Part shown: piece after piece, positions 5,818 through 63,423 of the stretch
Layout of the letters: each line of letters opens with the position of its first letter
Numbering within the stretch: the stretch's first letter is position 1
DNA from: Bacillota bacterium
GTDB taxonomy: Bacteria > Bacillota > Clostridia > Lachnospirales > Lachnospiraceae
Assembly (NCBI GenBank): GCA_029224465.1
Contig: JAQXUQ010000010.1
Span: forward strand, 62,001 to 126,000
Length of the DNA: 64,000 bases
Direction of reading: 5' to 3'
The notes under the pieces: generated by a model
The model's input: only the letters and a program-made list of their open reading frames with translations
Database searches by the model: none
Told to the model about the DNA's origin: nothing
Made by a program: the position numbers and the translations under genes

Positions 5818-5990
5818 AATACAATATGCGCAGATAGTTCTGTTTTGCATAAAAATTTAAAGACATATGCAGCCGGTAAAGCCGTATTGCCTGAAAAACA
5901 AAGATTCTCAGGCAATACGGGCTTTACTGCGCGATCCGTCTTGAATAATTCATGCAATCCGGTTCGCTGCCGCGCTATTGCATAGAGCAG
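5818..5990. repeat. Dispersed nested palindrome, copy A
   Basis: The core runs 5846-5960. Outer arms are TTTTGCATAAAAATTTAAAGAC and GTCTTGAATAATTCATGCAA (imperfect). The inner hairpin is nearly perfect: GTAAAGCCGTATTGCCTGA pairs with TCAGGCAATACGGGCTTTAC around a short loop at about 5900. A third pair (AATACAATATGCGC left, GCGCTATTGCATAGA right) flanks the core. The element lies in the divergent gap between the EFR1 and glutathione peroxidase genes. Five related copies occur elsewhere in the window. Confidence 0.8.
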
Positions 5991-6042
5991 GCGCGGCGCC
6001 GCCCGCAGACACGGGAAAACTTCCTGCAGCATCAAATTCATG

Positions 6043-6071
6043 TTGACAAATTTAATTGCATGCAATATATT
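6043..6071 (+). promoter_or_regulatory. Promoter of glutathione peroxidase, with dyad in the spacer
   Basis: A perfect TTGACA (6043-6048) and TATATT (6066-6071) are separated by 17 bp. The spacer holds the 12 bp palindrome ATTGCATGCAAT (6055-6066), placed where a bound repressor would block RNA polymerase. Confidence 0.75.
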
Positions 6072-6121
6072 AAAAGCAGTCAGGAAAACTTATTACCATC
6101 AATATAGATCGGAGGCACGAT

Positions 6122-6703
6122 ATGGCAGGTTTTTATGATTATTCCGTAAAAGATTCCAAGGGAAACGAAGTTCCTATGAGCAGCTTTCAGGGAAAGGTCG
6201 TTCTTGTCGTGAACACGGCGACCGGCTGCGGATTCACGCCGCACTACGCTCCTATGGAAGAAATGTATGAGAAATATCACGATCAGGGTCTTGAAATTCT
6301 GGATATCCCCTGCAATCAGTTCGCGGGTCAGACCCCCGGCACTGATGATGAAATTCATGAGTTCTGCCAGCTGAAATACAAGACACAGTTCCCGCAGATG
6401 CACAAAACCTGTGTCAACAACAATGAAGCAGCAGGTGAAAAGGAAGAGGCGCTTTACACCTTCCTCAAGAGTCAGCAGGGTTTTGAGGGCTTTGAGAAAG
6501 ACGCGAAGGGAATTAAAGAGAAGGCCACCTGCGCCGCTATGAACACGCTTCTTAAGAAGATCGATCCGGATTTCAGGAATAATTCGAACATTAAATGGAA
6601 CTTCACGAAGTTTGTTGTTGACAGACAGGGAAATGTTGTCAGACGTTTCGAGCCGACAGCGGATATGGGTGAGGTTGAAAAGTTCGTCGCAGGACTGCTC
6701 TGA
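6122..6703 (+). CDS. Glutathione peroxidase-family thiol peroxidase
   Basis: This 193-residue protein is of the GPx family. The peroxidatic residue is Cys (C36 in NTATGCGFT) rather than selenocysteine. CNQFAGQ and KWNFTKF supply the conserved Gln, Trp and Asn. Bacterial Cys-GPx proteins reduce hydrogen peroxide or lipid peroxides and usually take electrons from thioredoxin rather than glutathione. C64 in the PCNQF loop may be the resolving Cys. The ATG has GGAGG upstream, and a strong promoter makes this a single-gene unit. Confidence 0.93.
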   Translation: MAGFYDYSVKDSKGNEVPMSSFQGKVVLVVNTATGCGFTPHYAPMEEMYEKYHDQGLEILDIPCNQFAGQTPGTDDEIHEFCQLKYKTQFPQMHKTCVNNNEAAGEKEEALYTFLKSQQGFEGFEKDAKGIKEKATCAAMNTLLKKIDPDFRNNSNIKWNFTKFVVDRQGNVVRRFEPTADMGEVEKFVAGLL

Positions 6704-6763
6704 TAGCGTGTTACGGAAAAAACACAAACGGCTGGCCGGAAACATATGGACAGCCGGAAATAG

Positions 6764-6802
6764 CGGAAAAGCGGGAAAGCTTCATGCCTTCCCGCTTTTC
6801 CG
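6764..6802. terminator. Stem-loop between convergent gpx and yibE/F genes
   Basis: A perfect 14 bp stem, CGGAAAAGCGGGAA (6764-6777) with TTCCCGCTTTTCCG (6789-6802), overlaps the end of the minus-strand gene. Neither side has a good U-run, so efficiency is uncertain. Confidence 0.45.
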
Positions 6803-7915
6803 TGCCCTGTACCCCGGCAGAATGAGTCCTGCCGCGAGCGCCGTAAACGGTGCTACCGTCACAAGGCCGAAGCTGCCCGCCACTGTATGCAGCACTTCCG
6901 ACGCCACATAACGGTAATTCAGAATATGATCTACGGGCGTCCCCTGCGCCATGAACACCATCATCTGCGTGACATAGCTTCCGGAATAAGCAAGAAGCAA
7001 TGTCGTTGTCATCGTTCCCATCGCCGCTCTGCCGACATTCATCCCCGAACGAACGGCTTCTCTTCCGGAAATATCCGGTTTCTTCTGCACCACTTCCCAT
7101 ACTGCCGATGTGATGTCCACGGACAGGTCCATCATGGAGCCGCTGGCGCCGATGAAAATCCCCGCCATATAGATTCTGGTCAGATTCAGATTCTGATAGC
7201 CCGCGTAGAGAAGCGATTCGGCGCCGGGCATAATCGCTCCGTGAATATTCAGCCAGGAGGTAAAAATCATACCGAGCACCGCCGTTGTCAGAATGCCGAG
7301 GACAGACCCGGCGCTCGCGACGAGCGTACGCATGTCAATGCCGTACACAAAATAGATGATCATGAGCGTCAGCAGCGCCGAAAGGATGATGCCGGCCGCA
7401 ATCGGATCGCATCCGCGCAGATACGCGGGAATCAGAATTTTCCAGATTGCCAGCACGGTAATGATAAACGAGAAAATCGCCTGAATGGAATTCTTCCCCG
7501 CGAACAGGAGCAGAAAGCCGAAAAACAGAACCAGCAATACCGCTTCCTTGCCCAGTCTGAAATGGTCGGTCATGACTGCCTGTGTCACACGGTCGCCCTG
7601 ATGGCTGATCGTAACGTAAGCGCGGTCTCCTGTTTTATAGATTTTATCACGCTCCAGGGAGCCGCTTAAAAAGTTGACTCCCTGAATTGTTTTTCCTTTA
7701 AACATCCCCTCTGTCACATACAGCTCGCAGGACTGCTCGCCGCTCATGATCAGCCCGGATTTGAGAATACTGGAGTTATCCGTTGCCGTAACGATTACGA
7801 CGGCACGCTCCGCGTTCTGATAGATTACCACATCCTCATATCCGGTAGGAATCAGAAGAAGGACCGCGATCAGAAGGATACCTGCGAAAAGCTGCAGGAG
7901 ATAGTTTTTCTTCAT
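6782..7915 (-). CDS. YibE/F-like membrane protein
   Basis: The protein is 377 residues long. A signal-anchor helix leads into an extracytoplasmic domain of about 115 residues, followed by seven or so hydrophobic segments. These include the glycine-rich MAGIFIGASGSMMDLSVDITSA block characteristic of YibE/F (PF07907). The function is unknown; a transport role has been proposed for the family. I placed the start at ATG 7915, which has GGAG at seven bases. The longer frame would overlap the alkaline phosphatase gene. The 19 bp gap to that gene suggests co-transcription. Confidence 0.8.
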   Translation of the reverse strand: MKKNYLLQLFAGILLIAVLLLIPTGYEDVVIYQNAERAVVIVTATDNSSILKSGLIMSGEQSCELYVTEGMFKGKTIQGVNFLSGSLERDKIYKTGDRAYVTISHQGDRVTQAVMTDHFRLGKEAVLLVLFFGFLLLFAGKNSIQAIFSFIITVLAIWKILIPAYLRGCDPIAAGIILSALLTLMIIYFVYGIDMRTLVASAGSVLGILTTAVLGMIFTSWLNIHGAIMPGAESLLYAGYQNLNLTRIYMAGIFIGASGSMMDLSVDITSAVWEVVQKKPDISGREAVRSGMNVGRAAMGTMTTTLLLAYSGSYVTQMMVFMAQGTPVDHILNYRYVASEVLHTVAGSFGLVTVAPFTALAAGLILPGYRARKSGKA

Positions 7916-7934
7916 TTGCTGCTCCGGGCGGATT

Positions 7935-9551
7935 TTACCGAACACCTGTCAGCTCCGCCATTTTGTCATAAATTTCGGTATTGTCGTAGTAACCGGTGAA
8001 TTCATCCTGCCCCGCGCCCTGCGCCAGAACTTCGACCGGAAGGCCGGTATGCGCGTACGAGCCGAAGTTAACGCCGGACTTGTTGTTCAGGATGTGGGTG
8101 ATGGTTACGGTAAACGGTTCATAGCTTCCGTAAGCCACATACTCTTCCTGCGAAAACTCTGTTTCTTCTCCTGTCCTCGACATTGTCACTTCATAAGCCT
8201 TTTTCAGCTGATCATACTCGTACTGCGTCATCGCAAGCGTCCCGTCGTCTTCAGACTCCGGATGCAGATCCGCGCTGTCTTTTCCGTTCTCCGCCTGCGC
8301 GCTGCCGTCCGGAGCCGTCAGGCCGAACAGAGCCGTTACATCTTTCATCGCATCGTCGAACGGGGTCTTGTTTTCCTTGTACTTCGCGACATAGTCCTCG
8401 TCAAATTTCGCGTAGGAAATCTTCTGGTTCTTGAAATTTTTCAGGAATGTATCATAGTCCGTACCCGCATAGCCGATCGTCAGACCGCCCGTTTCATGAT
8501 CGCCGGTAACAAGGATCAGCGTTTCATCCGGATGCTGATTGTAAAACTTCACTGCTTCGGCAACCGCGTTGTCCAAAGCGAGCGTATCACCGATTGTGGA
8601 AGCGCCGTCGTTCGCGTGGCAGGCCCAGTCGATTTTGCCGCCCTCGACCATCATGAAAAAGCCTTTCTCATTGTTCAGAAGATCGATTCCCTTGGAAACA
8701 TAGTCAGCCAGCGCATATTCATTTTTCGTTCTGTCAACTTCATAGTTCATCGCGTCGCTGTCCGCCAAGTGTTCATCAATGACGATGACCTTGCCGTCGT
8801 CTTTTTTCAGTTTTCCGACTTCGTCCTGCTTCATGACAACCTTGTAGCCCGCCTTCTTTGCAAGGTCGTACAGGTTCTCTTTGTTTTCTTCCGGACCTGT
8901 CACCTTCTTGAGGCCGCCGCCGGCAAAATAATCAAACCCGCTGTCAATCAGTTCCTGCCCGATTTCATAGTAATTGTTGCGGGATTCCTGATGCGCGTAG
9001 AATGCGGCAGGTGTTGCGTGATTGAGATTTACCGTGGAAAGGATACCGATTTTGTAACCTTTCTGTTTTTTAAGCTTTTCGGCGATCGTCTCATACTTTT
9101 TACTGAAATCCAAAGACACATTGACCGAACCGCTCCAGGTCTTGTTGCCGGTCGCAATCGCTGTCGCCGTCGAGGCGCTGTCCGGTGCGAAACTCGTGCT
9201 GTCATAAGTCTGCGCCGATCCGGAAACGGGGAAATCCATCATGACGAGATTGTTTTTACTGGTCAGTTCGGTTTTCTTCTCGTCACCGGTCTGCACCGTT
9301 TCCGCTCCCTGCTGGTTCTGCGCACTCAGGTAGTAGTTCGTCAGCTGAATCTGGGGATAGCTCATACCGTCGCCGATAAACAGGAAAATGTACTTCGGCA
9401 GCTTTTCCTTCCGGTCTGTGGCAGAAGCCGCAGTCTTCTGCGCAGTCTGCGTTGTCTCCGCTTCCACTGTCCTCGGAACTGTGCCGATAGCTGTAAAAGC
9501 AGCCGCTCCGATAGCAGCCGTGAGCGTGATCAGTGCGAGTTTTTTCTTCAT
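7935..9551 (-). CDS. Secreted alkaline phosphatase
   Basis: This is a 538-residue PhoA-superfamily enzyme with a cleavable signal peptide (MKKKLALITLTAAIGAAAF...). Metal ligands and nucleophile are seen in FIGDGM, PDSASTATAIATG (the nucleophile Ser is in the DSAST segment), TGDHETGG and the late YAHTGLPVEV His. It would release phosphate from phosphomonoesters outside the membrane. There is no obvious lipobox. The ATG at 9551 follows AGGAGG. I see no convincing Pho-type box in the 130 bp upstream. Confidence 0.92.
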   Translation of the reverse strand: MKKKLALITLTAAIGAAAFTAIGTVPRTVEAETTQTAQKTAASATDRKEKLPKYIFLFIGDGMSYPQIQLTNYYLSAQNQQGAETVQTGDEKKTELTSKNNLVMMDFPVSGSAQTYDSTSFAPDSASTATAIATGNKTWSGSVNVSLDFSKKYETIAEKLKKQKGYKIGILSTVNLNHATPAAFYAHQESRNNYYEIGQELIDSGFDYFAGGGLKKVTGPEENKENLYDLAKKAGYKVVMKQDEVGKLKKDDGKVIVIDEHLADSDAMNYEVDRTKNEYALADYVSKGIDLLNNEKGFFMMVEGGKIDWACHANDGASTIGDTLALDNAVAEAVKFYNQHPDETLILVTGDHETGGLTIGYAGTDYDTFLKNFKNQKISYAKFDEDYVAKYKENKTPFDDAMKDVTALFGLTAPDGSAQAENGKDSADLHPESEDDGTLAMTQYEYDQLKKAYEVTMSRTGEETEFSQEEYVAYGSYEPFTVTITHILNNKSGVNFGSYAHTGLPVEVLAQGAGQDEFTGYYDNTEIYDKMAELTGVR

Positions 9552-9743: not shown

Positions 9744-12700
9744 TTACACTTCAATTAATTGCTGCAGCCGGAAGGAATAGATCAGCTTCTGGGCCACAGG
9801 AAATCCGATCGTGCGCTCCAGCGCTTCTTTATAGTAATCCAGCTGAACACTGTATCTGCTGATCAGCTCCTGCGGTGTCTTTACATAATCTGTTTTGTAA
9901 TCAAGCAGTATGACCTTTTTTCCATCCACTCCGTCTTCCATAAAGAACACGTCGATCATTCCCTGAATCAGGATCGTTTCCGTTTCCGGGAAACCGCTCC
10001 CCAGCCTCGACGCCGGGACGCCGATGACAAACGGCTGCTCTCTTCGAAGCTCCCCCCGTGCGTCCGCGGCTGCCATCCGCGCCGCTGCCTCCGAATGCAG
10101 GAACGGCTGCAGCACCTCCGGCGTCAGAACATCACCGTACGCCGCCGGTATCTCCTTCCGGTCAATTTTTTCTCTGACAAACGCGATGATTTCATCGTCC
10201 GTAACCCGTGACGGCACCGGCCAGCGGCCAAAATCGATCAGCTCGCAGGCGCGGTGAATCGCGGTGCCGCGGCGCGCGCCCTTCAGCGTGCCGCCTGCCG
10301 CGGCCGTTCCGCTCCCGGCAGCAAACCGCGGTACCGGAATATCCGGGTCTTCCTCCGGATACAACTGCACGGCGCCGTCAAGCGAAGTCGCACTCTCCTC
10401 CATGGTACCGGCATTTTCTTCCTCAGAAACGCGTTTCAGTTCGGTGACCGTTGTTTTGGTAAAAAGCTCCCTTAAATTTTCATACGGGTATCGGAAGGAA
10501 AAACGCTCGTCCAGTTCCATCGCAAGCGCCGGGAGCGGAAGCTTCGTAATGCCGCCTTCCCTCGCTGCACGAAGCGTTTCTTTCCGGACGCCCAGTGTCA
10601 GTTTTTCTTCGACTTCATGCAGTTCAAGATCCGTGATATCCTGCTTTTTCACAAGAAAGTCCCGCTGCTGCGCCGGCGTCATCGCGGCAAAGGCCAGCTG
10701 GATCAGATCAAGATAACTGCTGACGCCGCGGATGACAGGTACCGGCAGAGGACCGGCGCCCGTAGCAGTCCCTGCCGCGGCTTTCTGCAGCTGCTTCTCC
10801 CTCGCGCTGTGCTGCCGCACATACCCCGTGATGATCAGTTTCTCTTTTGCCCGCGTGAGTGCGACATACAGAACGCGCAGCTCTTCTCCCAGGCTGTCAC
10901 GTTCTATCTTATCCCGTACAGCGAGTCCCCGGAGCGTTGCAAGCTCGCTCCGGTAAACCGGATCGATATAGTCAATTCCAAAGCCCAGATCGCTGTCAAT
11001 GATCACGGAGCCCTGCGAATCTTTGCCTTTAAATGCCAGCCTCCCTGCTGTTCCGCAGACAAAACAAACCGGAAACTCCAGTCCTTTGCTCTTATGGATG
11101 GTCATGATGCGGACGACGTCCGCGTTTTCATCCAGGACGTTCGCCTCTCCGTAATCGACTTTTCGCTCCCGCATCTGATCAATATAACGGATGAAATTGA
11201 AAAGTCCGGTAAACGCCGTCTTTTCGTAGTCCATCGCGCGCACAGTGAGCGCCTGCAGATTTGCCCGGCGCTGCTCCCCTGCGGGCAGCGCCGTAACGTA
11301 ATCATCGTACCCGGTCTGTGTAATCAGCTGTTCCAGCAGTGTATGAACCGGCATGATCTTCGCACGGTCCCGCCACGTCCCGAGAAAGGCAAGGAACGCG
11401 GCGCATTTTCTGCCGGCTTCGTTGTTTTGTCCGGCATACGAAGTCACCGCGTCCAGCAGGAACTGGTTCTCTCCATCAAAGGTATAAGCTTTCTCCCCGC
11501 TCTGCTCATTATCCGCGGCCCCGGTTCCGCTGTCTTCGCCGGGCTTGAAGGATGCGCGGATTCTTCCGATTTCATCTTCCGAAAAGCCGCCGAAATATCC
11601 ACGCAGCGTTCCATACAGCGCGATATCCTGCCGGGGGTTGTCGATGACCCGCAGCAGCTGCAGCACTTCCCGGATCTCCTCGGCAGCAAAGTATCCGGTT
11701 TTATTGTCCACATACAGGGGAATCCCCTGCAGCTCGAAGATCTCGCGGAACGCGTCATACCAGCTCCCGCCCGAACGCAGCAGAATCACGATGTCACTGT
11801 ATCGTACCGGCCGGAGCTGCCCCGTCTCTTTGTCGGTCACGAGCTCATAGCCTGCCATCCTGCGGATACGCTGCGCCACGGCAAGCGCCTCTTTCTTATG
11901 GCTGGACAGCGATGCCACATCATCCTCATCCCCGGAGGTTTCTCCGGCAGATTCCGCGCCGTCCGGAAATGTTTTTGCGGCGGCTTTCCCGGCGTCTTCT
12001 TCCGTATCTTCATCCGGCATGCCCGCAACAAGGATCAGTTCCGCCGTATCCGTCATCCCTTCCGGCAGCGGCGGATAGACAGCGCCGGCTTTGAGTTCGG
12101 CAGCTGCGTCATAATCGACGCCGCCAGCTTCCCTCCGCATAATTTTCCGGAATATATCATTGACTGCGTCCAGCACTTCGGGACGGCTCCGGAAATTCTG
12201 ATCCAGGTCGATCCGTTCACACTGCGGATCATCCGGCTTGTAGGTATCGAACTTCCGGACAAAGATCTCGGGGCGGGCATTTCGGAAACGATAGATGCTC
12301 TGTTTGACATCACCGACCATAAACCGCGCGAAGCGCCCATCCGCCTCGCCCGCAATCGTCGACAGGAGAAGCTCCTGCACTTCGTTGCTGTCCTGATATT
12401 CGTCGATCAGCACCTCGTCGAAATACTTCTCATACGCCTTCGCGCCGCTCCTCGGCACATAGCTGACTGTTCCGTCCGCATTCTCTCTGCGCTCCAGAAG
12501 AACCAGAAGCGCAAAACGTTCAAGATCGGAGAAATCGATAAGGCCGCGGTCTTTTTTAACCTGCGTGTACATATCGATAAAAGAAATCGTCGTATCGACG
12601 AGCGCCCGCAGCGCGGCATCCGCCCTGTTCATCCTCGAAACGAGCGTCCGCAGGTCAGCTGCGAAAATCTCCGTATTGTATTTCTGCAGCTGCTCTTTCA

Positions 12701-13694
12701 CCGATTTCCGGAGGTCGCCGGCAAGCTTTTTCTTCTCATCGCTGACGGTCGTCATCTTTTTGGTAATGGAAGGGAGTTTCGTAAAGGATGAAGGGGCCGC
12801 GCAGCTGGCTGCCAGTTTCTGAAAAACATCCCGCAGCGCAGCCGTATCCGCGCTCTCATCAAGTAAAACTCCGCGTGCCTGCTTCAATCCTTTTTCCGGA
12901 TCCGTAATGCCAAACGGAGCAAATACCGCATCCTGATCCGGCTCCAGAATATCCGCGTACGGATACGGACCGTCCGGCTGCGCGCAGATCGAAGCAATCG
13001 CGCGATAAATTTCCTTCGTATCTTCGATCGTATCCAGCGAGTCCAGAAGAAGCCTGCGGAACCACGGTTTATGCAGCAGGTCTTCCTCTCCCTGCACGCT
13101 GTAGTCTTCCCTGTGCGCAAGCAGCCAGTCTTTCTGCGAAGGATGGGAATTGGAAGCCGAATAAAGCCGTCCGATCAGTTCTTCCAGCCTGCCGTCTCCT
13201 TCCGCCGCAAAATACTCTGCCGCCGCAAGAAACGCAGGATCGTTCTTTTCGTGCTGCTGCTCTGCAAATTTGTCCAGCGTGTCGCTGCGCAGCAGTTTTT
13301 CTTCGGTGTCATCCATCTGCCGGCAGCCCGGGTCAAGTCCGATATCACTGAAATTATTGCGCAGGAGAAAGCTGCAGAAGCTGTCAATCGTCGTGATCTG
13401 CGCGTGGTGCAGAAGCGTTTCCTGCCGCTGCAGGTGCCTGTTGTCCGGCTCTTTCTCAATACGGTCCGAAATGGCTCTGCCGATTCTCTCGCGCATTTCC
13501 GCCGCGGCGGCCCGTGTGAACGTCACGACAAGAAGCCGGTCGATGTCAAGCGGCTTTTCTCCCTCGCTGATCATCCGGATAATACGTTCGACGAGGACGG
13601 CTGTTTTGCCGCTGCCTGCCGCCGCCGAGACCAGAATGTTATGATTTCTGGCGTTCAGCACCTTTGTCTGGTTCTGTGTAAAATGAATTCCCAT
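9744..13694 (-). CDS. addA: AddA helicase-nuclease subunit
   Basis: AddA, 1316 residues, is the UvrD-type helicase and nuclease subunit of AddAB. The complex processes double-strand breaks to load RecA. Visible motifs are Walker A SAAAGSGKT (residues 22-31), Walker B with DEYQDSN (431-437), the helicase VGDVKQSIYRFR motif, MTIHKSKGLEFP, and the C-terminal RecB-type nuclease motif LLDYKTD (D1265, K1267). The length is near the usual 1200-1250. A roughly 50-residue acidic insertion at about 555-605 and a low-complexity stretch near residue 1120-1150 may account for the excess. It follows addB by 6 bp. Confidence 0.97.
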   Translation of the reverse strand: MGIHFTQNQTKVLNARNHNILVSAAAGSGKTAVLVERIIRMISEGEKPLDIDRLLVVTFTRAAAAEMRERIGRAISDRIEKEPDNRHLQRQETLLHHAQITTIDSFCSFLLRNNFSDIGLDPGCRQMDDTEEKLLRSDTLDKFAEQQHEKNDPAFLAAAEYFAAEGDGRLEELIGRLYSASNSHPSQKDWLLAHREDYSVQGEEDLLHKPWFRRLLLDSLDTIEDTKEIYRAIASICAQPDGPYPYADILEPDQDAVFAPFGITDPEKGLKQARGVLLDESADTAALRDVFQKLAASCAAPSSFTKLPSITKKMTTVSDEKKKLAGDLRKSVKEQLQKYNTEIFAADLRTLVSRMNRADAALRALVDTTISFIDMYTQVKKDRGLIDFSDLERFALLVLLERRENADGTVSYVPRSGAKAYEKYFDEVLIDEYQDSNEVQELLLSTIAGEADGRFARFMVGDVKQSIYRFRNARPEIFVRKFDTYKPDDPQCERIDLDQNFRSRPEVLDAVNDIFRKIMRREAGGVDYDAAAELKAGAVYPPLPEGMTDTAELILVAGMPDEDTEEDAGKAAAKTFPDGAESAGETSGDEDDVASLSSHKKEALAVAQRIRRMAGYELVTDKETGQLRPVRYSDIVILLRSGGSWYDAFREIFELQGIPLYVDNKTGYFAAEEIREVLQLLRVIDNPRQDIALYGTLRGYFGGFSEDEIGRIRASFKPGEDSGTGAADNEQSGEKAYTFDGENQFLLDAVTSYAGQNNEAGRKCAAFLAFLGTWRDRAKIMPVHTLLEQLITQTGYDDYVTALPAGEQRRANLQALTVRAMDYEKTAFTGLFNFIRYIDQMRERKVDYGEANVLDENADVVRIMTIHKSKGLEFPVCFVCGTAGRLAFKGKDSQGSVIIDSDLGFGIDYIDPVYRSELATLRGLAVRDKIERDSLGEELRVLYVALTRAKEKLIITGYVRQHSAREKQLQKAAAGTATGAGPLPVPVIRGVSSYLDLIQLAFAAMTPAQQRDFLVKKQDITDLELHEVEEKLTLGVRKETLRAAREGGITKLPLPALAMELDERFSFRYPYENLRELFTKTTVTELKRVSEEENAGTMEESATSLDGAVQLYPEEDPDIPVPRFAAGSGTAAAGGTLKGARRGTAIHRACELIDFGRWPVPSRVTDDEIIAFVREKIDRKEIPAAYGDVLTPEVLQPFLHSEAAARMAAADARGELRREQPFVIGVPASRLGSGFPETETILIQGMIDVFFMEDGVDGKKVILLDYKTDYVKTPQELISRYSVQLDYYKEALERTIGFPVAQKLIYSFRLQQLIEV

Positions 13695-13700: not shown

Positions 13701-16700
13701 TTACTGCTCCCTGTCCTCTTTCGGGATCTTTTCAAAAATCTGATAGTAGCGGCAGCCCGGCAGTTTCCTGTCAAAACCGCACACATCCTGATAATCGCAG
13801 AACGTGCAGGCGCTTCTTCCGCCTTCGAGGGCTACCGGATCCGCCTGGATGTTTCCTTCCATGATCTGCAGAGCAAGCTCCAGAATTCTTCTTTTCATCG
13901 CTTCTGTCAGGGCGTTAAATTCCACTTCGTCGAAGGTCCTGGCTGCTGATGTTTTGGCGACCTGCTGCGGTGCCTTTTTCGTCAGCCTGACCGGAATGAC
14001 CGCACTGTCCGCTTCTTCCGAACGGTCCAGCAGGTGAATGACCGACGGATCGGCGTTCACCATTCCTTTCGGACATAGACTTTTCCGGATTGCCCGGAGA
14101 TGCGCTTTCCGCAGCTCGTCTGCCGTATTCCCGTCAACGCACGGATCATCCGGCAGCAGCGTTTCGCTCCTGATCAGAGGATCGGCAAAATGATAGTACA
14201 GAAGTGCCGCCGGTATAACGTTTTTACCCGGGTGCAGCTTTTCCAGAAGTTCCTTTTCGGCATCCATGTACAGCAGAAGCTGCAGCTGCAGGCCCGCGGC
14301 CATCTTGTTTTTGTCAAGATCCGGATTCCCGGACTTGTAATCAATGATCTTGATATACAGGTTTCCCTCGTCTCCGCAAAGGTCCACGCGGTCGATGCGC
14401 CCTGTCAGGGAGAGGCTGCGGCCGTCGGAAAGCCGGAAGTTCATGGCGTTGCCATAGCCGAAATCAACCTCAAAATATGCCGGCACAAACTCCCCTTGCT
14501 GCAGCTGATACTGGAGCGTCTCAATCGTGCGTTCGAGTATTTTCTCCATCCTTCCAAGCCTGTACGCATCCCTCGCGGACGCGTATACAAGACCGTGGTT
14601 ATACTGTCCGGCTGTTTCGGAAAGCGCTTCCCTGATGAATGTTTTTCCCTCTTCTTCCGAAAAATCATTCCAGGAAAGGTGATGCTCCCGCAGCTTCCTG
14701 CTGAAGCTCTCAATGCTGCCATGCAGAATGGTGCCGGAATCCGCGGGCTCGAAAGTAAAATTGCCGCGCCTGCGCAGCCGCAGACCGTATTGGAGATACT
14801 GTTTCAGGTAGCACTGCGCGGCGGTCTCAAGTCTTGTTACGGAGCCTCTGATGATATCGCCGTAAACAAGAGCCGCGGTTTCCGCCGAGAGCCGCATCGG
14901 CGTATATCGCGCAAAAGCCGTTTCGGAAAGTCTTCTCACCGCGGCCGCCTGCGGCCTTCCCGCGCCGCAGCAAAGGCCGTATACCGTAAGAAACCGGTCT
15001 TTCTCCTCCAGTTTTCTGTCATAAAGTCCGTCCGCAAACTCCCGAAGTCCCTCGGCCAGGAAATGAACAGAATCCTTATCGGATACCAGTTGCTGTTCCA
15101 TCGGACGAAGCTGCGGTGTCCGCACCTTCACCGCGGGGAACATGCGGCGCAGCAGATCGATCAGATAGGAAGGGCGAAGTGCCGATCCGTCCGGAGCTGC
15201 GGCGGCGAAGGATACAATGAGGCGCGCGGTTTGTTTTGTCAGATTCAGATAAAGATAATAGCGCTGAATATACATCTGCTGCCGCGGCGTCGGCGCAAGC
15301 TCCAGTCCCGACTCCTGCAGAAATTCGCGGTCAAGGTCGGAAATGAGGCCGCCCTTCGAGGTCGCGCGCGGGATGCTTCCGTCGTTTGCCCCGATGAAAA
15401 ACAGCACTTTCACCTCGGAAAGTCTGGTCCGTTCGATGTCACCTGCGAGGACGCGGTCCGCTTTCTGCGGCAAAGTACCAAGCTTGATCTCCTGCAGTCC
15501 GGCGTCAACCAGTTCCGCATAATCCGCGGCGGAAACCGGTTCATCGCCTAAAAGCTCATAGAGCTGATCCAGGAGCACGATCAGCGCGCGGTAAATCTGG
15601 TCATATTCCTTTTCGCGAACCGGATCACCTTCCTTTTCGAATTTGGCCGCAAGTACCTGCATCTTCTCCGCCGCATGAATGCGCAGCAGGAATTCATACA
15701 AAGCCCCGGTCCTTGCGGCTGCGCTTTTGTCCGCGCTGATCAAAGGCTCCAGTTCATAGAGGAACTTCCGGCGAAGTATTTCGAAATCACCTTCAAACGG
15801 TTCCATCCATTTCCCTTTGGAACGGATGCCTCGTGCCAGGCAGTAGTTCTCCAGCCGGTCTGTCTCTTCAGGAAGAAGATTCGACAGGCCGCTCCGCAGA
15901 TACCGGAAAACAGACCCGTACGCGAAACTCTCCGAGATTACAAGAAGGACGCTCCGCACGGCTTCGGTCAGGGGATTCTGGATCACGGCCCTCGTCCGGT
16001 CGACATAAACCGGAATGTCGTAGCGGGCTGCCTGCAGCTCCAGCTCGTCGGCATAGGCGGCAAGATCCCCGGCCACGATGCCGAAGTCACGGAAAGCATA
16101 TCCTTCCGAACGCACCAGCTCCCGGATACGGATGCAGACCTGACGGACTTCTTCCGCGATGGAGTCAGCCTGCATGATTTCGACCGGGAAATCTCCGCTT
16201 CGTGGAACTGCGGGGCGCTGTCCGTCTGCGGCGCCTGCGGACCGGGCGCTGCCGGACGGAGCGGCTCCGGCAGCCGCTCTGCGGCTGCTCTCTTCCTGTT
16301 CAAAGGGCTTTAACGGGAAGCGGAACAGCGTCTTCTCCAGATGCGCAAAGGCCGCTCTGCCGGAAAAACGGCCGGGCGTACCCTCTCCAAACGTCACATC
16401 CTTGTCGTGAGGCACCCCCGCTTTTGCGGCAAGCATTGTGATGTCACGGATTGTTTTGCGCGGAAGATAAAAGAGATCCTGCTCGTCCAGCAGCACGTGC
16501 GGATCCTCACATTCGGCCGCGGAAGGTCCTCCGTCCTCACCGATCGTCAGGCTGAAAATCACCTTTTCCGCCCGCTCCATCAAAGCAGTCAGCACCCTGT
16601 ACTGCACCGGCGTAAACCCCGTAAAACCGTCGAAAATCAGAATGCTGGGCGGAATTAAGCGGGACTGTGGTATCACCTGCGCAAGCCGGTCCATCGTCTC

Positions 16701-17240
16701 CTCATTTGTAATAAAACGCTCTTTCTCGTAAGCAAGAAAAGCCCGATACAAAATCTGGACATCCCGCAGTCTTGCAGCCAGCGCGCCCTGTCCATGCTCT
16801 TTGGCATACCGGATGAGGTCGTCGACGTCGGACACCCCGACTCCATATTGCATGAACTCGGAAATCACCGACTTGATTTCGCTGATCATGCCGAGCTTGT
16901 CCAGCTGCCCCTTCAAGACAGAAAGGTCCTTCGAACAGCCTGCTGCCGCTTTGCGAAGAATCAGGCTTTTTCCTACATCATCCAGCAGTGTTCTGTCATC
17001 GGTTCCGACTTCCGCGAAGATGCGGTGCGCCAACCTTCCAAAGGACAAAACATCGACATTCATGATTCCATGATTTGGCGATGCCAGGACAAGCTCCTTC
17101 TGTGTCTGCATCGTGTACTGCTCCGGCACAATGTACATGGCATACCGGCCGATGGAACCGCTTGTGTATTGAATGACTTTTTTATGAAGCTCACTGCTTT
17201 TTCCGGCGCCGGAGGCGCCTGTATAAAAAGAATAGCTCAT
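13701..17240 (-). CDS. addB: AddB helicase-nuclease subunit
   Basis: AddB is 1179 residues long. It has Walker A GASGAGKSSE near the N-terminus. The second nuclease domain has the IIDYKSGN motif. The iron-sulfur staple cysteines are in CTFCDYQDVC...C (C1145, C1148, C1154), with a distal Cys in QCYLKQYLQYGL. AddB recognises Chi-like sites and cuts the second strand. A poorly conserved Ala/Ser/Gly-rich insertion lies near residues 308-345. A TATAAT-like -10 lies at 17292-17287, but no good -35 precedes it, so the promoter is uncertain. Upstream is the repeat block. Confidence 0.97.
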   Translation of the reverse strand: MSYSFYTGASGAGKSSELHKKVIQYTSGSIGRYAMYIVPEQYTMQTQKELVLASPNHGIMNVDVLSFGRLAHRIFAEVGTDDRTLLDDVGKSLILRKAAAGCSKDLSVLKGQLDKLGMISEIKSVISEFMQYGVGVSDVDDLIRYAKEHGQGALAARLRDVQILYRAFLAYEKERFITNEETMDRLAQVIPQSRLIPPSILIFDGFTGFTPVQYRVLTALMERAEKVIFSLTIGEDGGPSAAECEDPHVLLDEQDLFYLPRKTIRDITMLAAKAGVPHDKDVTFGEGTPGRFSGRAAFAHLEKTLFRFPLKPFEQEESSRRAAAGAAPSGSARSAGAADGQRPAVPRSGDFPVEIMQADSIAEEVRQVCIRIRELVRSEGYAFRDFGIVAGDLAAYADELELQAARYDIPVYVDRTRAVIQNPLTEAVRSVLLVISESFAYGSVFRYLRSGLSNLLPEETDRLENYCLARGIRSKGKWMEPFEGDFEILRRKFLYELEPLISADKSAAARTGALYEFLLRIHAAEKMQVLAAKFEKEGDPVREKEYDQIYRALIVLLDQLYELLGDEPVSAADYAELVDAGLQEIKLGTLPQKADRVLAGDIERTRLSEVKVLFFIGANDGSIPRATSKGGLISDLDREFLQESGLELAPTPRQQMYIQRYYLYLNLTKQTARLIVSFAAAAPDGSALRPSYLIDLLRRMFPAVKVRTPQLRPMEQQLVSDKDSVHFLAEGLREFADGLYDRKLEEKDRFLTVYGLCCGAGRPQAAAVRRLSETAFARYTPMRLSAETAALVYGDIIRGSVTRLETAAQCYLKQYLQYGLRLRRRGNFTFEPADSGTILHGSIESFSRKLREHHLSWNDFSEEEGKTFIREALSETAGQYNHGLVYASARDAYRLGRMEKILERTIETLQYQLQQGEFVPAYFEVDFGYGNAMNFRLSDGRSLSLTGRIDRVDLCGDEGNLYIKIIDYKSGNPDLDKNKMAAGLQLQLLLYMDAEKELLEKLHPGKNVIPAALLYYHFADPLIRSETLLPDDPCVDGNTADELRKAHLRAIRKSLCPKGMVNADPSVIHLLDRSEEADSAVIPVRLTKKAPQQVAKTSAARTFDEVEFNALTEAMKRRILELALQIMEGNIQADPVALEGGRSACTFCDYQDVCGFDRKLPGCRYYQIFEKIPKEDREQ

Positions 17241-17449
17241 GCTGCTCTAAACTCCTTTTCACTGCGATCGCCAGTCGCGATGATTTATTATACATCGAAG
17301 CGGGGGCAGCCGGGGATGGGGAAACTTGTACGCGCGGTGCTCACTTTGGCTCTCCGGAGGCTCCGCCGCGCGGCAATATTCTCCGGCTCTTCAGTGCCTT
17401 CGCCGCGCGGCTCGATTTATTCCGAGCGGTGGTGCGGCGGGGCGGGCGC

Positions 17450-17630
17450 TATCTATGCAATGGCACATTTATTCCCGCTTTTGCATGGATTATTCAAGAC
17501 ATCTTCGGCGAACACGCGCGTATTGCATGGATTTCTTCGTTTTTCAGGCAATACCGCGCCGGCCGCCGGATTCGTTTTGGATTATCTATGCATCCCGGCG
17601 CGGTTCTTCCATATTGCATGGAACTGATCC
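17450..17630. repeat. Dispersed nested palindrome, copy B
   Basis: The core runs 17482-17595. The left outer arm TTGCATGGATTATTCAAGAC mirrors the right arm GTTTTGGATTATCTATGCAT. The inner arms are GTATTGCATG and CAGGCAATAC. The third pair is CTATCTATGCAATGG on the left and CCATATTGCATGG on the right. Confidence 0.85.
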
Positions 17631-17721
17631 AATCTTGTCCGCGCGGTGTTCACTCCGGCTCTTCGAAGGCTTCGCCGCGCGGCCTGATTTATTCCGGGCG
17701 GTGGTGCGGCGGGTCGGGCGC

Positions 17722-17902
17722 TATCTATGCAATGGCACATTTATTCCCGCTTTTGCATGGATTATTCAAGACATCTTCGGCGAACACGCGCGTATTGCAT
17801 GGATTTCTTCGTTTTTCAGGCAATACCGCGCCGGCCGCCGGATTCGTCTTGGATTATCTATGCAATCTGGCGCGGTTCTTCCATATTGCATGGAACTGAT
17901 CC
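17722..17902. repeat. Dispersed nested palindrome, copy C
   Basis: The core runs 17754-17867. It is copy B displaced by 272 bp with few changes; the right arm reads GTCTTGGATTATCTATGCAA and so pairs better than in copy B. Confidence 0.85.
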
Positions 17903-18048
17903 AATCTTGTCCGCGCGGTGTTCACTCCGGCTCTTCGAGGGCTTCGCCGCGCGGCTCGATTTATTCGGTGCGGCTCGCTCTCATTCTTCTTCACCGATAG
18001 GATGCATCTATTCTATAATCACAGCAGTGACATGCTCTTCGTCTTCTG

Positions 18049-18664
18049 ATGAACGCCGGCTTGTGCCGGTCCTGTCTTTCTATCACTTCTGTTCATTCGA
18101 ACGAATCTCATGCACGCAGACTTTTTCATCCGCAGGAGATTGCCGCAGTCCGCATTTCCTCTATCGAAAGTATCCGGACTGAGGATACAATAGAAGCAGG
18201 ACCGGACTCGAAAAGTGTTCAACTGGATATCCTCTGCTCTTCCGAAAACGGCAATTACTATGACATCGAAATGCAGGCGCAGGATACCGGGGAACTCCCG
18301 AAAAGGAGCCGCTACTACAGTTCGATGATGGCTTTCCTCGACTACGTAGGCGAAAAACCAGCCGGCAGATCAGACGATTCCTATGTTCAGCAGATTGACA
18401 GAGCGGTCCGAAGGGCTAAGAAAAATGCTGTCTGGAGGAAACAATATATGGATTGGGAAATGGAGAAGAAAGAGATCGAGTGGACAGCCCGTAAGGAGGG
18501 GCGAGCTGAAAGGCAAGGCTGAAGGCAAAGCTGAGGGCAAGGCTGAGAAACTTGCTGAGAACACTAAAACCCTCGCCGCTTACCTGAAATCCCTGGATGA
18601 CTCCCTTACAATGGAACAGGCGATGCGCAAGGCTTCCGAAATCCTGCAGAGGGTCTCAGAATAA
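18049..18664 (+). pseudogene. Degenerate Rpn-family (PD-(D/E)XK) nuclease gene
   Basis: Frame 1 carries SVQLDILCSSENGNYYDIEMQAQD...LPKRSRYYSSM. This is the catalytic core of Rpn/PD-(D/E)XK transposase-like nucleases (LD...EMQ motif). The frame then jumps straight to the C-terminal RRAKKNAVWRKQYM region, so the middle of the protein is missing. The N-terminal start is also missing. Near 18500 a frameshift moves the Lys/Glu/Gly/Ala-rich tail (KGKAEGKAEGKAE, from a 12 bp repeat) into frame 2, which ends at 18664. Intact Rpn proteins are around 300 residues and promote recombination. This one should be non-functional. Confidence 0.8.
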
Positions 18665-28521: not shown

Positions 28522-28719
28522 TCCTGTGTCCTCCCCGGAATTCATCTGCCATTTCCATGATAATGGATTTTTGGAGAAAAGCAACATGGCCTTGCGGTGC
28601 GCGCGAGGCCGCTTCGCCGCGCGGGGCGGGCTTTTCATGCGGAGCGCGGGCACTTCGCCGTGCGTCCGCGGCTTTCATGCAGGGCGTCACAGGCGCACCA
28701 CCGTGCCGTCCGCGGCTTC
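28522..28719. other. GC-rich gene-free stretch left of palindrome copy D
   Basis: It holds repeated GC-rich words such as CTTCGCCGCGCGG and GGCTTT(T)CATGC, related to the GC-rich module beside copies B, C and F. No gene is supported. Confidence 0.5.
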
Positions 28720-28895
28720 TCAATGCAATACGCGCGCGCACCGCCGTTTTGCATTGATATTCCAAGACGAAAACAACAATTCCCCTCGTATTGCCTGAAA
28801 ATCTTACTTTTTCAGGCAATACGAGGGGATGCTAGTAATTTGTCTTGAATTTTTCATGCAATGCCGGGAAATTTTCCGCTATTGCATAGATCTGC
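28720..28895. repeat. Dispersed nested palindrome, copy D
   Basis: The core runs 28750-28863. Outer arms are TTGCATTGATATTCCAAGAC and GTCTTGAATTTTTCATGCAA. The inner hairpin is perfect over CCCCTCGTATTGCCTGAAAA and TTTTCAGGCAATACGAGGGG (28782-28828), with a short loop. The third pair is CAATGCAATACGCG on the left and CCGCTATTGCATAGA on the right. It lies upstream of the membrane-protein gene and downstream of lysC. Confidence 0.88.
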
Positions 28896-38059: not shown

Positions 38060-38212
38060 GGCCGGAGTTTATGCAATACGCCAAAACTGTATCGCATTGT
38101 ATTGATATTTAAAGACATTTCTATCGCACATCGCGGTATTGCCTAGATCCGGGCCGAATCCAGACAATAGACTCCGTGCCTTGTCAAATGTCTTGGATTA
38201 TCTATGCAAATC
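38060..38212. repeat. Dispersed nested palindrome, copy E (degenerate)
   Basis: The core runs about 38093-38212. The left outer arm GCATTGTATTGATATTTAAAGAC and the right arm TGTCTTGGATTATCTATGCAA are recognisable. The inner hairpin is decayed (GTATTGCCTAGAT against AGACAATAG). The left third arm is TTATGCAATACGCC. It lies upstream of the DUF438 promoter. Confidence 0.65.
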
Positions 38213-38337
38213 TATGCCCACCGCCGTTATTTCATTGGACAGGCCGCCGCTGGCGGCATAAAAGACATATCAAGGGTGGAAATGCAGTTTGGAAGGTACG
38301 CCGCGGCAAGTAAAACCGGTCGTCCTGCAAATCACGA
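38213..38337. other. Gene-free stretch between palindrome copy E and the glutaredoxin terminator
   Basis: No gene, promoter or strong hairpin is evident. Confidence 0.5.
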
Positions 38338-59018: not shown

Positions 59019-59020
59019 GA

Positions 59021-60348: not shown

Positions 60349-61644
60349 TTACTTCTTCAGCGGAGATTCTCTGTAAATGATATCTTCCCGCGCGGGTCCG
60401 TTGGATACCATAGTAATCGGGAAACCGATCTGCTGTTCGATGAAGTTGACATAATCCTTCGCTTCCTGCGGGAGATCCTCGAATCTGCGGATTCCGCGGA
60501 TGTCACACTTCCAGCCTTTGAAAGTCTTATAAACCGGCTTGCATCTCTTAAGATCCTTCGTTACCGGAAATTCGGTAATCTGTTTCCCGTCCAGTTCATA
60601 CGCAACGCAGACCGGGATCTCATCCAGATATCCGAGATCATCAAGGACTGTGAAAGCAACATCTGTTGCGCCCTGGACTCTGCAGCCGTATTTGGAAGCG
60701 ACACAGTCATACCAGCCGACTCTTCTGGGGCGGCCGGTCGTAGCGCCGTACTCGCCGCCGTCGCCGCCATGATTACGAAGCGACACAGCCTCATCTCCGA
60801 AAATCTCGGATACAAACTCTCCTGCGCCGACCGCGGACGAATATGCCTTCGAAACGACGACGATCTGCCCGATCGCATACGGAGGAATGCCGCAGGAAAC
60901 CGCGCCGAAAGCCGCAAGCGGGCTCGAGGAGGTTACCATCGGATAAATTCCGTTGTCCGGGTCTTTCATCGTGCCGAGCTGACCTTCGAGCAGGATTGTT
61001 TTATCTTCCCTGATCGCGTGATACAGATATTCGGAAACATTGCCAAGATAGGGCTTCACTTCTTCGCGGACCGTTTTGATCCAGTTTAAAAGTCCTTCCC
61101 TGTCAATCGGATCGGTGTGATAAAGGTTGACAAGCAGAGCGTCCTTGATATCGGCAACCCGGTTGATCTTCTCCATCAGAACATCATCGTCCTGATAAAA
61201 CTCATTGATCTGCCAGCCGATTTTCGCGTATTTGTCGGAGTAGAACGGCGCAATGCCCGACTTGGTTGAGCCGAAGGATTTTCCGGCTAGTCTTGCCTCC
61301 TCGAGCGTATCAAACAGAACATGATACGGCATCATAACCTGCGCTCTGTCGGAGATCATGATCTGCGGCTGCGGAACGCCCTTGCTCATGATGTCCTTCA
61401 GCTCAGCCATGAACTTCTCAATATCAAACGCTACGCCGGAGCCCATGATATTCATGATGTTCTGATGAAAAACACCGGACGGAACCGTATGAAGCGCAAA
61501 CTTGCCATACTTGTTCACAATTGTATGGCCGGCATTCGCGCCTCCCTGAAAGCGGATGACAACGTCTGCGCTGTCTGCCAGCGTATCCGTGATCTTTCCT
61601 TTTCCTTCGTCGCCCCAGTTGGCACCGACTACTGCTTTAACCAT
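60349..61644 (-). CDS. purA: Adenylosuccinate synthetase
   Basis: PurA, 431 residues, joins aspartate to IMP with GTP on the way to AMP. It has GANWGDEGKGKITD at the N-terminus (the family P-loop, WGDEGKGK), the FQGGANAGHTI segment, and a C-terminal NFIEQQIGFPITMVSNGPAR block. Ala replaces the usual Gln before the first Gly-rich loop (GANWG), as in some Firmicutes. The ATG at 61644 follows AGGAGG. Single-gene unit with a strong promoter and terminator. Confidence 0.97.
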   Translation of the reverse strand: MVKAVVGANWGDEGKGKITDTLADSADVVIRFQGGANAGHTIVNKYGKFALHTVPSGVFHQNIMNIMGSGVAFDIEKFMAELKDIMSKGVPQPQIMISDRAQVMMPYHVLFDTLEEARLAGKSFGSTKSGIAPFYSDKYAKIGWQINEFYQDDDVLMEKINRVADIKDALLVNLYHTDPIDREGLLNWIKTVREEVKPYLGNVSEYLYHAIREDKTILLEGQLGTMKDPDNGIYPMVTSSSPLAAFGAVSCGIPPYAIGQIVVVSKAYSSAVGAGEFVSEIFGDEAVSLRNHGGDGGEYGATTGRPRRVGWYDCVASKYGCRVQGATDVAFTVLDDLGYLDEIPVCVAYELDGKQITEFPVTKDLKRCKPVYKTFKGWKCDIRGIRRFEDLPQEAKDYVNFIEQQIGFPITMVSNGPAREDIIYRESPLKK

Positions 61645-61720
61645 TTCGTGATCCTCCTGTAATCAATCCGTTACAAGGCAGGACAGCTTCTGCATGAAAC
61701 TGTCTGCCAGACCATCAGTC

Positions 61721-61749
61721 AGTATACGTTATTTCGGCAAAGTTGTAAA
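61721..61749 (-). promoter_or_regulatory. Promoter of purA
   Basis: TTTACA (61749-61744) and TATACT (61726-61721) are 17 bp apart on the minus strand. The leader of about 70 bases holds a stem, GGCAG.ACAG with CTGT.CTGCC (61673-61709). Confidence 0.72.
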
Positions 61750-61823
61750 ATCAATAATTCCATTCTTCCCGTAAAACCTTCTGTCCGTGAGCAGAAGCTG
61801 CCGCAGCGTTTTTCGTCTGCCCT

Positions 61824-61852
61824 TTGCGGAGAACCGCTTTTCGCGGTATTGT
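61824..61852 (+). promoter_or_regulatory. Promoter of the ClC transporter gene
   Basis: TTGCGG (61824-61829) and TATTGT (61847-61852) are 17 bp apart; a CCGC/GCGG hairpin falls in the spacer. Confidence 0.45.
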
Positions 61853-61884
61853 ATAAGTATTACGTTACGAGGGGAGAATGTTCT

Positions 61885-63162
61885 ATGTTGCAGGAATTCA
61901 ACGCATACGCGCGTCACGTGCTTCATACTGCGAAAGGCGCGGTTTCATGGTTTCTTTTCAGCGTTCTGTGCGGTGCCCTCATCGGCACGGTTTCCGCAGC
62001 CTTCGCAAAGCTGATCGCTCTGGCAACCGGTTTTCGGATGGCGCACGGCGAAATCATCTATTTTCTGCCGCTGGCAGGTCTTCTGATTATCTTCATCTAT
62101 CACAAGGCAAACGTTGTAACATCCCGCGGCACGAATCTTGTTATCCATTCGATCCGCCACGACGAGCCGATTCCGTTCCGCATGGCTCCGCTGATCTTTG
62201 TCTCTACGGTCATTACACATCTGTTCGGCGGTTCGTCCGGCCGGGAAGGAGCGGCGCTGCAGATTGGCGGGAGCCTTGGTAACTTTCTCGGTGAAAAGCT
62301 GAAAATGACATCAGCGGAAAGCGCGAGACGCCGCTCGATTATGGTCGGCATGTCCGCTTCCTTCTCAGCCCTCTTCGGCACTCCGCTCGCGGCTACGATT
62401 CTGCCGCTCGAGATCAGTACCGTCGGCATTGTCTACTATTCAAGTTTTATGCCCTGCGCGATCGCTTCCTTAATCGCGCATTACATCGCGGGTCTGTTCG
62501 GTTTGCAATCAGAAGCGGTCAGCCTCGATCTGCCCGCGTTCGATCTGCGTCTGTTTGCCTTCATAACGCTTCTTGCGGCACTCAGCGGCATTGTCAGTGT
62601 TCTGTTCTGTGTCAGCATGCACCGTGCAAACCAATATATGCCAAAACTGATCAAGAATCCATATGTACGTGTTTTTGCCGGCGGCGCGATTATTGTTCTC
62701 CTGACATTTCTTGTGGGAAACCAGACGTATAACGGCACCGGATCAGACATCATCGCTGCCTGCATCTCCGGAAACGTGATGGAAGGGTCGCTCCCCGGTT
62801 ATGCTTTTCTCCTAAAAATCCTGTTCACCGCGATCACACTCAGCGTCGGTTACAAAGGCGGCGAACTGGTCCCTACGATGTTTATCGGCGCCACGCTGGG
62901 GCACGCGTTTGGTGTCCTGACGGGGATTGATCCGATGCTCGCTTCCTGCATCGGTCTTGGCTGCTGCTTCTGCGCAGTCCTGAATCTGCCGATGACAGCC
63001 CTTCTTCTCTGTTTTGAGATGTTCGGTTTCAAGGCAATGCCGTACTTCCTGTACGCGCTCGCGATTTCCTACATTTTTTCCGGCAATTACGGGCTTTACA
63101 AGGATCAGCTGATCCGTTACGACAAGTACGGCACCGGGCTCATTGACAAGTTTACACACTGA
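61885..63162 (+). CDS. ClC-family anion transporter
   Basis: This 425-residue ClC protein has about ten membrane helices. The anion-path motif reads GGSSGREGAALQIGGS (GKEGP in classical ClC). The second motif reads GYKGGELVPTMFIGATLG in place of GGxFxPxLxxGA. The GGE(V/L)xP form is shared with the fluoride-exporting ClC-F branch and with some uncharacterised Firmicute ClCs, so chloride and fluoride are both possible. No fluoride riboswitch is visible upstream. The C-terminus has no CBS domains. The ATG at 61885 follows GGGGAG. Confidence 0.85.
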   Translation: MLQEFNAYARHVLHTAKGAVSWFLFSVLCGALIGTVSAAFAKLIALATGFRMAHGEIIYFLPLAGLLIIFIYHKANVVTSRGTNLVIHSIRHDEPIPFRMAPLIFVSTVITHLFGGSSGREGAALQIGGSLGNFLGEKLKMTSAESARRRSIMVGMSASFSALFGTPLAATILPLEISTVGIVYYSSFMPCAIASLIAHYIAGLFGLQSEAVSLDLPAFDLRLFAFITLLAALSGIVSVLFCVSMHRANQYMPKLIKNPYVRVFAGGAIIVLLTFLVGNQTYNGTGSDIIAACISGNVMEGSLPGYAFLLKILFTAITLSVGYKGGELVPTMFIGATLGHAFGVLTGIDPMLASCIGLGCCFCAVLNLPMTALLLCFEMFGFKAMPYFLYALAISYIFSGNYGLYKDQLIRYDKYGTGLIDKFTH

Positions 63163-63280
63163 CAATTGTCCGCGCGGCACCCGCTCCGGCTCCCCGGTGA
63201 CTTCGCCGCGCGGCTCGATTTATTCGGAGCGGCGCTTTTCGGCGTTTTCATGTGCCGCAACAGGCACTTCCCGGTGTTTT
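63163..63280. repeat. GC-rich CCGCGCGG module beside palindrome copy F
   Basis: It contains CCGCGCGGCACCCGCTCCGG and CTTCGCCGCGCGGCTCGATT (positions about 63171-63230), which match the GC-rich module of the 17.3-18.0 kb block. It lies on the left side of a nested palindrome here as there. Confidence 0.75.
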
Positions 63281-63423
63281 CATACAATAATATCTCATTC
63301 GCCGCTGCTGCATAGATTTGTCAAGACGTTTCCGGCGGCCGCGCGCGTATTGCATGGATTTTCTCGTTTTTCAGGCAATGCCGCGCGGTCTGCCGGATTC
63401 GTCTTGAATTATCTATGCAATCC
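63281..63423. repeat. Dispersed nested palindrome, copy F
   Basis: The core runs 63309-63423. Outer arms are TGCATAGATTTGTCAAGAC and GTCTTGAATTATCTATGCAA; inner arms are GTATTGCATG and CAGGCAATGC. It is closest to copies B and C. It lies between convergent clc and purB. Confidence 0.82.

Follow-up and report, generated by a model that had tools for sequence, protein, structure and literature searches.

Six copies of one palindromic repeat in the window

The window analyzed here is a 64-kb stretch from the draft genome of a Lachnospiraceae bacterium (the host genome, G000; 2.55 Mb, 34 contigs, 95.9% complete), and the gaps between its genes hold six copies, A to F, of an extragenic palindromic repeat. 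An earlier note had placed six nested palindromes in this stretch, and all six were located at its positions and proved alignable over about 171 bp. Taking the T-rich strand as the orientation of each copy, A lies on the reverse strand (5814–5988) and is weakly asymmetric, with 8.7 bits between strands, and B (17450–17624), C (17722–17896), D (28718–28892), E (38066–38240), and F (63277–63455) lie on the forward strand; the right end of F, that is, its last arm, is degenerate. All six were recovered by a covariance model (R1) trained on 28 of the host copies, four of those in the window among them, with scores of 103–152 bits on the better strand. B and C are the first and second copies of a tandem duplication (17381–17924) of 272 bp, in which each repeat unit comprises one element and a GC-rich palindrome and the two units are 96% identical, so that the window contains five independent copies rather than six. 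Chance is excluded as their source, because the 11-bp motif TATTGCATAGA, with one mismatch allowed, matched 14 times in the window, always inside the six copies, against 0.7 matches expected from base composition.

The unit is about 171 bp long and comprises six copies of the motif TATTGCAT(A/G)GA (arms 0 to 5) in the orientation − + + − − +, with motif centers 24, 42, 25, 42, and 24 bp apart. These distances come from a first alignment of 29 copies, in which seven of 36 matches were left out (six partial or split, plus the tandem twin B); a second alignment lacked copy F, the sequence of which was not recovered in full. The 29-copy alignment was almost gap-free, with more than 1 bit in most arm columns, many of them reaching 2, and less than 0.5 in most linker columns. 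A third arm pair, noted previously as flanking several copies, is real and belongs to the full unit, which spans ATGCAATA to TATTGCAT, and CAAGAC/GTCTTG adjoins arms 1 and 4. In copy D, the arms on the forward strand are arm 1 (TTTTGCATTGATATTCCAAGAC, 28747–28768), arm 2 (TATTGCCT, 28789–28796), and arm 5 (TATTGCAT, 28880–28887), and those on the reverse strand are arm 0 (ATGCAATA, 28723–28730), arm 3 (AGGCAATA, 28814–28821), and arm 4 (GTCTTGAATTTTTCATGCAATG, 28842–28863). The left inner linker (28769–28788) is free in sequence and partly complementary to the right inner linker.

Arm spacing was conserved, as had been claimed, but the 113–120 bp then given for the core was not tight enough: the stretch that runs from TGCAT in arm 1 to ATGCA in arm 4 measured 111 bp in all nine copies found outside this genome by a pattern that allowed 96–126 bp. 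In a catalog of 68 copies (44 from the host genome, 23 from a relative, and one from a third assembly), 63 have 174–176 bases in a 175-column frame, and 35 of the 40 canonical host copies have exactly 175. The right half of six catalogued copies (four in the host and two in the relative, all 176 long) reads as a second left half, (− + +)(− + +), and a half-module model (R2) scores the right halves of these direct copies on the opposite strand. The unit therefore consists of two half-modules (− 24 + 42 +), usually inverted and sometimes direct.

Conservation in place between two species

Orthologous copies are common to the host and to a same-genus relative (isolate RUG304, G029) about 90% identical to it. 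Their flanks were mostly 85–95% identical, some pairs being recognized on one side only. Across 15 orthologous pairs, arms differed at 48 of 930 positions and linkers at 145 of 930, with arms below linkers in 13 pairs, equal in one, and above in one. Eight of the 23 copies in the relative do not enter these pairs: two are truncated, one is a mosaic, one differs in its left flank, one matches at another side, and three have no counterpart. When columns were picked from 29 copies outside the pairs, which avoids choosing arms from the very copies compared, conserved columns differed at 29 of 858 positions and variable columns at 114 of 702 (13 pairs, the two direct-type pairs being excluded). The 29 changes in conserved columns fell on both lineages, 14 on G029 and 10 on the host, with five unclear.

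Divergence thus stood at 3–5% in arms and about 16% in linkers, compared with 21% at fourfold sites (1870/8793), and codon positions 1 and 2 differed at 1267 of 37466. Indels were about seven times rarer inside the element than beside it (seven events per 2503 aligned bases vs. 52 per 2785 in still-alignable flanks; p = 1e-8), and the 60-bp flanks diverged by 32.7%, an upper bound given that these alignments were global and forced. Set against the flanks, linker letters change about as freely as their surroundings, and linker length changes seldom. Arm conservation together with the shortage of indels is the mark that putative binding sites held at fixed spacing would leave. Moreover, constrained arms, linkers constrained in length only, and the fact that a half-module can be turned are all consistent with sites at which a protein binds duplex DNA.

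Genomic neighborhood and orientation

Only one of the 68 catalogued copies overlaps a gene called by a home-made predictor, in keeping with the intergenic placement first reported. Element-bearing gaps were tandem in 18 cases, convergent in 11, and divergent in six, and gaps of at least 100 bp lacking the element were tandem in 44, convergent in six, and divergent in 20; convergent gaps are therefore over-represented among those that bear it. Among the 61 copies having both neighbors called, 51 adjoin at least one gene 3′ end and 10 lie in divergent gaps, and the earlier objection that copies in tandem, convergent, and divergent gaps make a simple terminator role unlikely was a fair one. The neighbors are ordinary, unrelated genes: none of the 25 commonest of 144 Pfam families was common to more than two of 75 neighbors (of the 76 listed, one fragment at a contig start was omitted).

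In every copy one strand is T-rich and the other A-rich, although some copies can be assigned only weakly. With GC skew used as a stand-in for the leading strand, the T-rich strand coincided with the locally C-rich strand in 36 of 44 host copies. This rule held for 30 of the 32 copies whose strands differ by more than 20 bits and for six of the 12 with 20 bits or fewer, the latter as expected where orientation cannot be told. It also held for 15 of the 19 copies that lie in convergent or divergent gaps, for 14 of the 16 among them whose strands differ by more than 15 bits, for 25 of 27 orientation-clear places after copies within 3 kb were merged (hand count), and for 11 of 12 copies of the largest subfamily that were oriented without T-tracts, having been picked by eye from outer-linker scores. 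GC skew is a better predictor of orientation than the coding strand, the two being not fully separated.

Of the genes around B and C, the left neighbor encodes an AddB-type nuclease-helicase (13701–17240; ADDB_N and PDDEXK_1 domains) and is adjoined by a 1316-aa frame (9744–13694) that may encode AddA. A PDDEXK_2 (Rpn-like, recombination-promoting nuclease) gene stretch also lies beside the duplication (18151–18333), and the only other PDDEXK_2 match in the genome (C6:71044-71394) is likewise next to an element, one that belongs to the same subfamily and has the same relative orientation. As a partner of the element the Rpn-like protein was rejected, since its presence in 22 of 37 sampled same-genus genomes means that the two do not co-distribute. 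Beside B and C, at 17322–17374, 17631–17683, and 17903–17955, lies another palindromic repeat, which is GC-rich and takes the form CCGCGCGG...CCGCGCGGC followed by GATTTATT or a similar sequence, and a stretch resembling it was seen beside F. By eye, that stretch is followed at the F place in G029 by sequence resembling the region upstream of the Rpn-like stretch at B/C, and there the contig ends.

Taxonomic range, gain and loss

The earlier note had named a lack of further copies in the genome as grounds for abandoning the family; R1 instead gave 88 matches in the host genome, forming 44 places, every one of them matched along the full model on both strands. Among relatives, G029 gave 46 matches at 23 places and the other 35 sampled same-genus genomes gave none: among 61 genomes searched with R1 (the host, 36 sampled same-genus genomes, and 24 from other families of the order), only the host and G029 matched, and R2 agreed with the absence from 35 of 37 same-genus genomes in this same sample. 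A wider search of 299 genomes of the family with R2 gave one match, the host itself, and none in the other 298; this search used stricter filters and scored 15 candidates per genome, and its draw did not take in G029 and included one same-genus genome among the 298. Half-modules also occur in isolation in the host genome (C31:5989-6057, C14:36056-36117, and C16:43444-43509), apparently as what is left of decayed or truncated elements.

A pattern that matches 16 of the 28 model copies was also scanned over a genome collection that excludes the host genome, and it hit eight contigs of uncultured Lachnospiraceae bacterium isolate RUG304 and one of uncultured Clostridiales bacterium isolate RUG409, both presumably of rumen origin. 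The RUG409 copy (L060, 4297-4471) is the single place in that assembly and lies on a 5.4-kb contig, where the 1059 bp between the left end of the element and the end of the contig share 96% identity with G029. This copy reflects either a binning error or a transfer, and we excluded it from claims on function. Viral carriage was rejected: three pattern scans returned four, two, and two stretches, of which the first four lacked inner arms by eye and had no R1 match, and the other four had no half-module match, two showing only a 33-base match of 14 bits. Plasmids and phages gave no match with copy D as the sole query. An analogous family in another genome (G014) was likewise rejected, as k-mers over 149 kb of it (12 contigs, mostly small) represented a local tandem repeat and scattered words, and no such element was visible by eye.

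Gain and loss were compared base by base at four places that differ between the host and G029, without an outgroup to polarize the direction. At two of them, G029 has a short gap where the host has a stretch of about 310 or 320 bp that contains the element; at the third, 382 bp are missing in G029 and the edges show a 5-base imperfect overlap (GCGGC/GCCGC), interpretable as a target duplication or, in DNA so rich in GC, as a coincidence; and at the fourth, G029 lacks about 1.4 kb that carries two elements in the host but keeps a remnant of one of them. At the orthologous places of the window copies, G029 retains only the right part of D and only the left part of E. One G029 copy (C28:69009) is a mosaic that follows its orthologue up to arm 1 and then another subfamily, so that tracts have been exchanged between copies, plausibly by conversion.

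A non-autonomous mobile element, resembling a miniature inverted-repeat transposable element (MITE) or a REPIN, is a real possibility, if not a probable one. The half-module would then be a transposon end with three transposase sites, moved in trans by a transposase that is perhaps now lost or diverged. Ends of the Mu or Tn7 type, which carry several transposase sites each, provide the model. The scattering of copies beside unrelated genes, the patchy distribution, the differences in presence between species about 90% identical, and the subfamilies with linkers in common all speak for mobility, as does the orientation bias by GC skew, which replication-coupled elements may show, and the one imperfect overlap could be added to these. 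However, no clear target-site duplication or common boundary emerged at the four places, the similarity between copies ends at varying distances past 171 bp, and arms and length are kept in place after speciation, which is unexpected for old insertions. In the 95.9%-complete draft, a Y1 transposase (RAYT, PF01797) gave no match at E ≤ 0.001 in a search that was positive in five of 14 control genomes, a result on which a RAYT partner was rejected, and no autonomous copy was noticed among 114 half-module matches, although half-modules flanking a gene were not searched for systematically.

Pairing and folding

Arm pairs were 90.1% complementary compared with 89.4% after shuffling, a level reached in 41 of 500 shuffles, and the arm covariation score of 0.110 (0.105 shuffled) was reached in 102 of 500; arm pairing as a selected structure was therefore rejected for lack of excess covariation. 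A scan of all registers found the largest excess pairing between the inner linkers, at a one-base offset, and in 24 non-redundant copies of 63 the inner linkers matched their own partner better than those of other copies (6.48 vs. 4.51, z 7.2). Outer linkers were rejected as stems, having no own-partner complementarity (z −1.5), and among the other linker pairs tested only the left inner with the right outer was weakly positive (z 2.3). The covariation that the earlier note had read from intact loop stems in A and D, and had proposed to check, consequently survives for the inner linkers, which outdo mispaired combinations, and falls away for the arms. Given arms that do not covary and a right half that can be turned with spacing kept, the arms would act as binding sites and not as halves of a stem.

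A structured RNA, in which case the hairpin would work within a transcript of the element, for example as a 3′ end or stability element, appears unlikely. It draws on low folding energy, found on both strands (z −4 to −10, three copies), on the inner-linker complementarity with its register offset, on the 51 copies that adjoin a gene 3′ end, and on the tandem gaps of the host, where the T-rich strand runs opposite both neighbors in 16 and along with them in five (hand count). Yet the arms do not covary, the stem of arms 1 and 4 is broken in the direct variants, 10 of the 61 copies lie in divergent gaps, the two strands fold about equally (with DNA parameters, the A-rich strand did better in 24 of 44), and Rfam gave no match at gathering scores over the window and six loci. 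RNA loops, moreover, seldom hold an exact length with free sequence. Highly improbable, lastly, is that the inner-linker complementarity is a by-product of replication template switching, which is known to correct imperfect palindromes, in an otherwise decaying repeat, because although the direct variant and the mosaic attest to rearrangement inside elements, this leaves the in-place arm conservation and the shortage of indels unexplained.

Comparison with known repeats

REPINs, which are REP doublets forming hairpins, resemble the element in being extragenic inverted doublets with conserved arms and many copies, and their spacer is described as keeping its length and, with compensatory changes, its capacity to form a hairpin, but not its sequence (PMC3116915). 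The element, too, has two inverted palindromic modules, a length-conserved, hairpin-capable spacer, and an extragenic location, apart from the six direct copies of 68. Unlike REPINs, it has three motif copies per half, direct-repeat variants, a 171-bp unit, and a host without a match to the Y1 (RAYT-type) transposase, and it is set apart by the in-place constraint on orthologous copies and the orientation bias by GC skew. Neither "strand bias" nor "leading strand" turned up in a word search of the REPIN paper (PMC3116915). In view of the lack of a Y1 transposase match and the differing tags and stems, we did not file the element under REPINs.

The PU-BIMEs are built from inverted modules. In Escherichia coli, these palindromic extragenic repeats are said to interact with DNA gyrase and IHF (PMC2267715); module anatomy and host differ from those here, a distinction drawn by description and not by sequence comparison. 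REPs with GTAG or CGTC tags are described as tagged hairpins, often in head-head or tail-tail dimers and some with complementary spacers, with stems mostly of 6–9 bp (extremes 5–13) and mostly short loops, and the CGTC families are apparently without a dedicated transposase (PMC3733652). Many copies here read (C/T)GTC in GTCTTG, like the CGTC-tagged families. Unlike tagged REPs, they have 18-base linkers between arms 0 and 1 and arms 4 and 5, and (C/T)GTCTTG lies about 12 bases from the next arm, so that no GTAG or CGTC tag stands at a hairpin foot.

The bcr1, ERIC, and YPAL repeats, at about 100–170 bp with tens of copies or more, mostly intergenic and most of them predicted to fold, are alike in size, copy number, placement, and folding (PMC2267715). 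Their hosts differ, and the portions of that source at hand describe no six-site fixed geometry for them (PMC2267715). AIMS share the strand bias: these polar chromosome sequences are biased by replication strand, form a gradient toward the terminus, and are argued to be under selection, but they are 8 bp long, compared with 171-bp composite elements here (PMC5993296). The sharp terminal inverted repeats and target-site duplication of a MITE derived from a DDE transposon were not evident at the four places of differing presence, with extents of 310, 320, and 382 bp and about 1.4 kb, the imperfect overlap at one of them aside. Integron attC sites, which have core boxes and depend on an integron integrase, were also considered; the copies here are dispersed beside ordinary genes. 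Among the literature matches listed, none described this element family.

Interpretation

Taken together, the element is best read as a REPIN/BIME-like yet separate repeat. We hold with moderate confidence that it is a lineage-restricted extragenic repeat whose working part is the DNA itself, the arms binding a putative protein. Of the options originally offered, a mobile element, a structured RNA, and a cruciform or protein-binding site, this favors the protein-binding site; mobility drew no support from a clear target-site duplication or a Y1 transposase, although duplication and exchange between copies do occur, and the arms do not behave as stem halves. Under this proposal, a sequence-specific protein, probably a dimer, would bind the arms and fold the 171 bp into one complex, such that the arms are read as sequence and the linkers count mainly for their length. 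The inner linkers may help the hairpin-capable center to pair or extrude, and the half-modules might sit either inverted or direct. The T-tract asymmetry would give the complex a direction, set with GC skew and perhaps with replication, the coding strand being not fully separated as a cause. Copies would multiply by duplication and exchange tracts among themselves, following a logic like that of REPINs and BIMEs, minus the transposase of that family.

Several observations weigh against the protein-binding reading. No candidate for the binding protein was found, and we infer both this protein and any benefit of the element to the cell; its absence from 35 of 37 sampled same-genus genomes makes any function dispensable in the genus. 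At several places G029 has lost copies or retains them truncated, the likeness of the arms could owe something to exchange between copies, and the complementarity of the inner linkers is superfluous for a plain model of double-strand binding. With respect to orientation, two clearly asymmetric copies break the GC-skew rule, and the bias is weaker in G029 (nine of 11 clear copies and seven of 12 others, counts that are not independent of those of the host, many copies being orthologues). The T-rich strand is also opposite the majority coding strand in 32 of 44 copies, 28 of 32 clear ones, and 12 of the 16 convergent- or divergent-gap copies whose strands differ by more than 15 bits. Furthermore, intergenic AT skew is +0.054 on the G-rich strand, and the linkers of oriented copies are themselves T-rich (T-A skew of 0.31 vs. 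0.09 in flanks), so that the bias could in part follow strand composition; A reportedly can exceed T on the leading strand in Firmicutes.

A bolder form of the protein-binding reading, which we offer tentatively and consider rather unlikely, is that of a young, lineage-specific, directional chromosome-site system, in which a newly acquired protein would use about 45 six-site, 171-bp assembly platforms between genes, aligned with replication and maintained through selection on the sequence and spacing of the arms, to organize or mark the chromosome in a manner unlike any described repeat. Palindromic repeats between genes are widespread, and it has long been asked whether they benefit their host or themselves; orthologous copies in two species about 90% identical make this question measurable. 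Because the element occurs in just two of the 37 sampled same-genus genomes, its partner protein should be findable by co-distribution. The orientation bias, if it holds on closed chromosomes, would tie such a repeat to the direction of replication.

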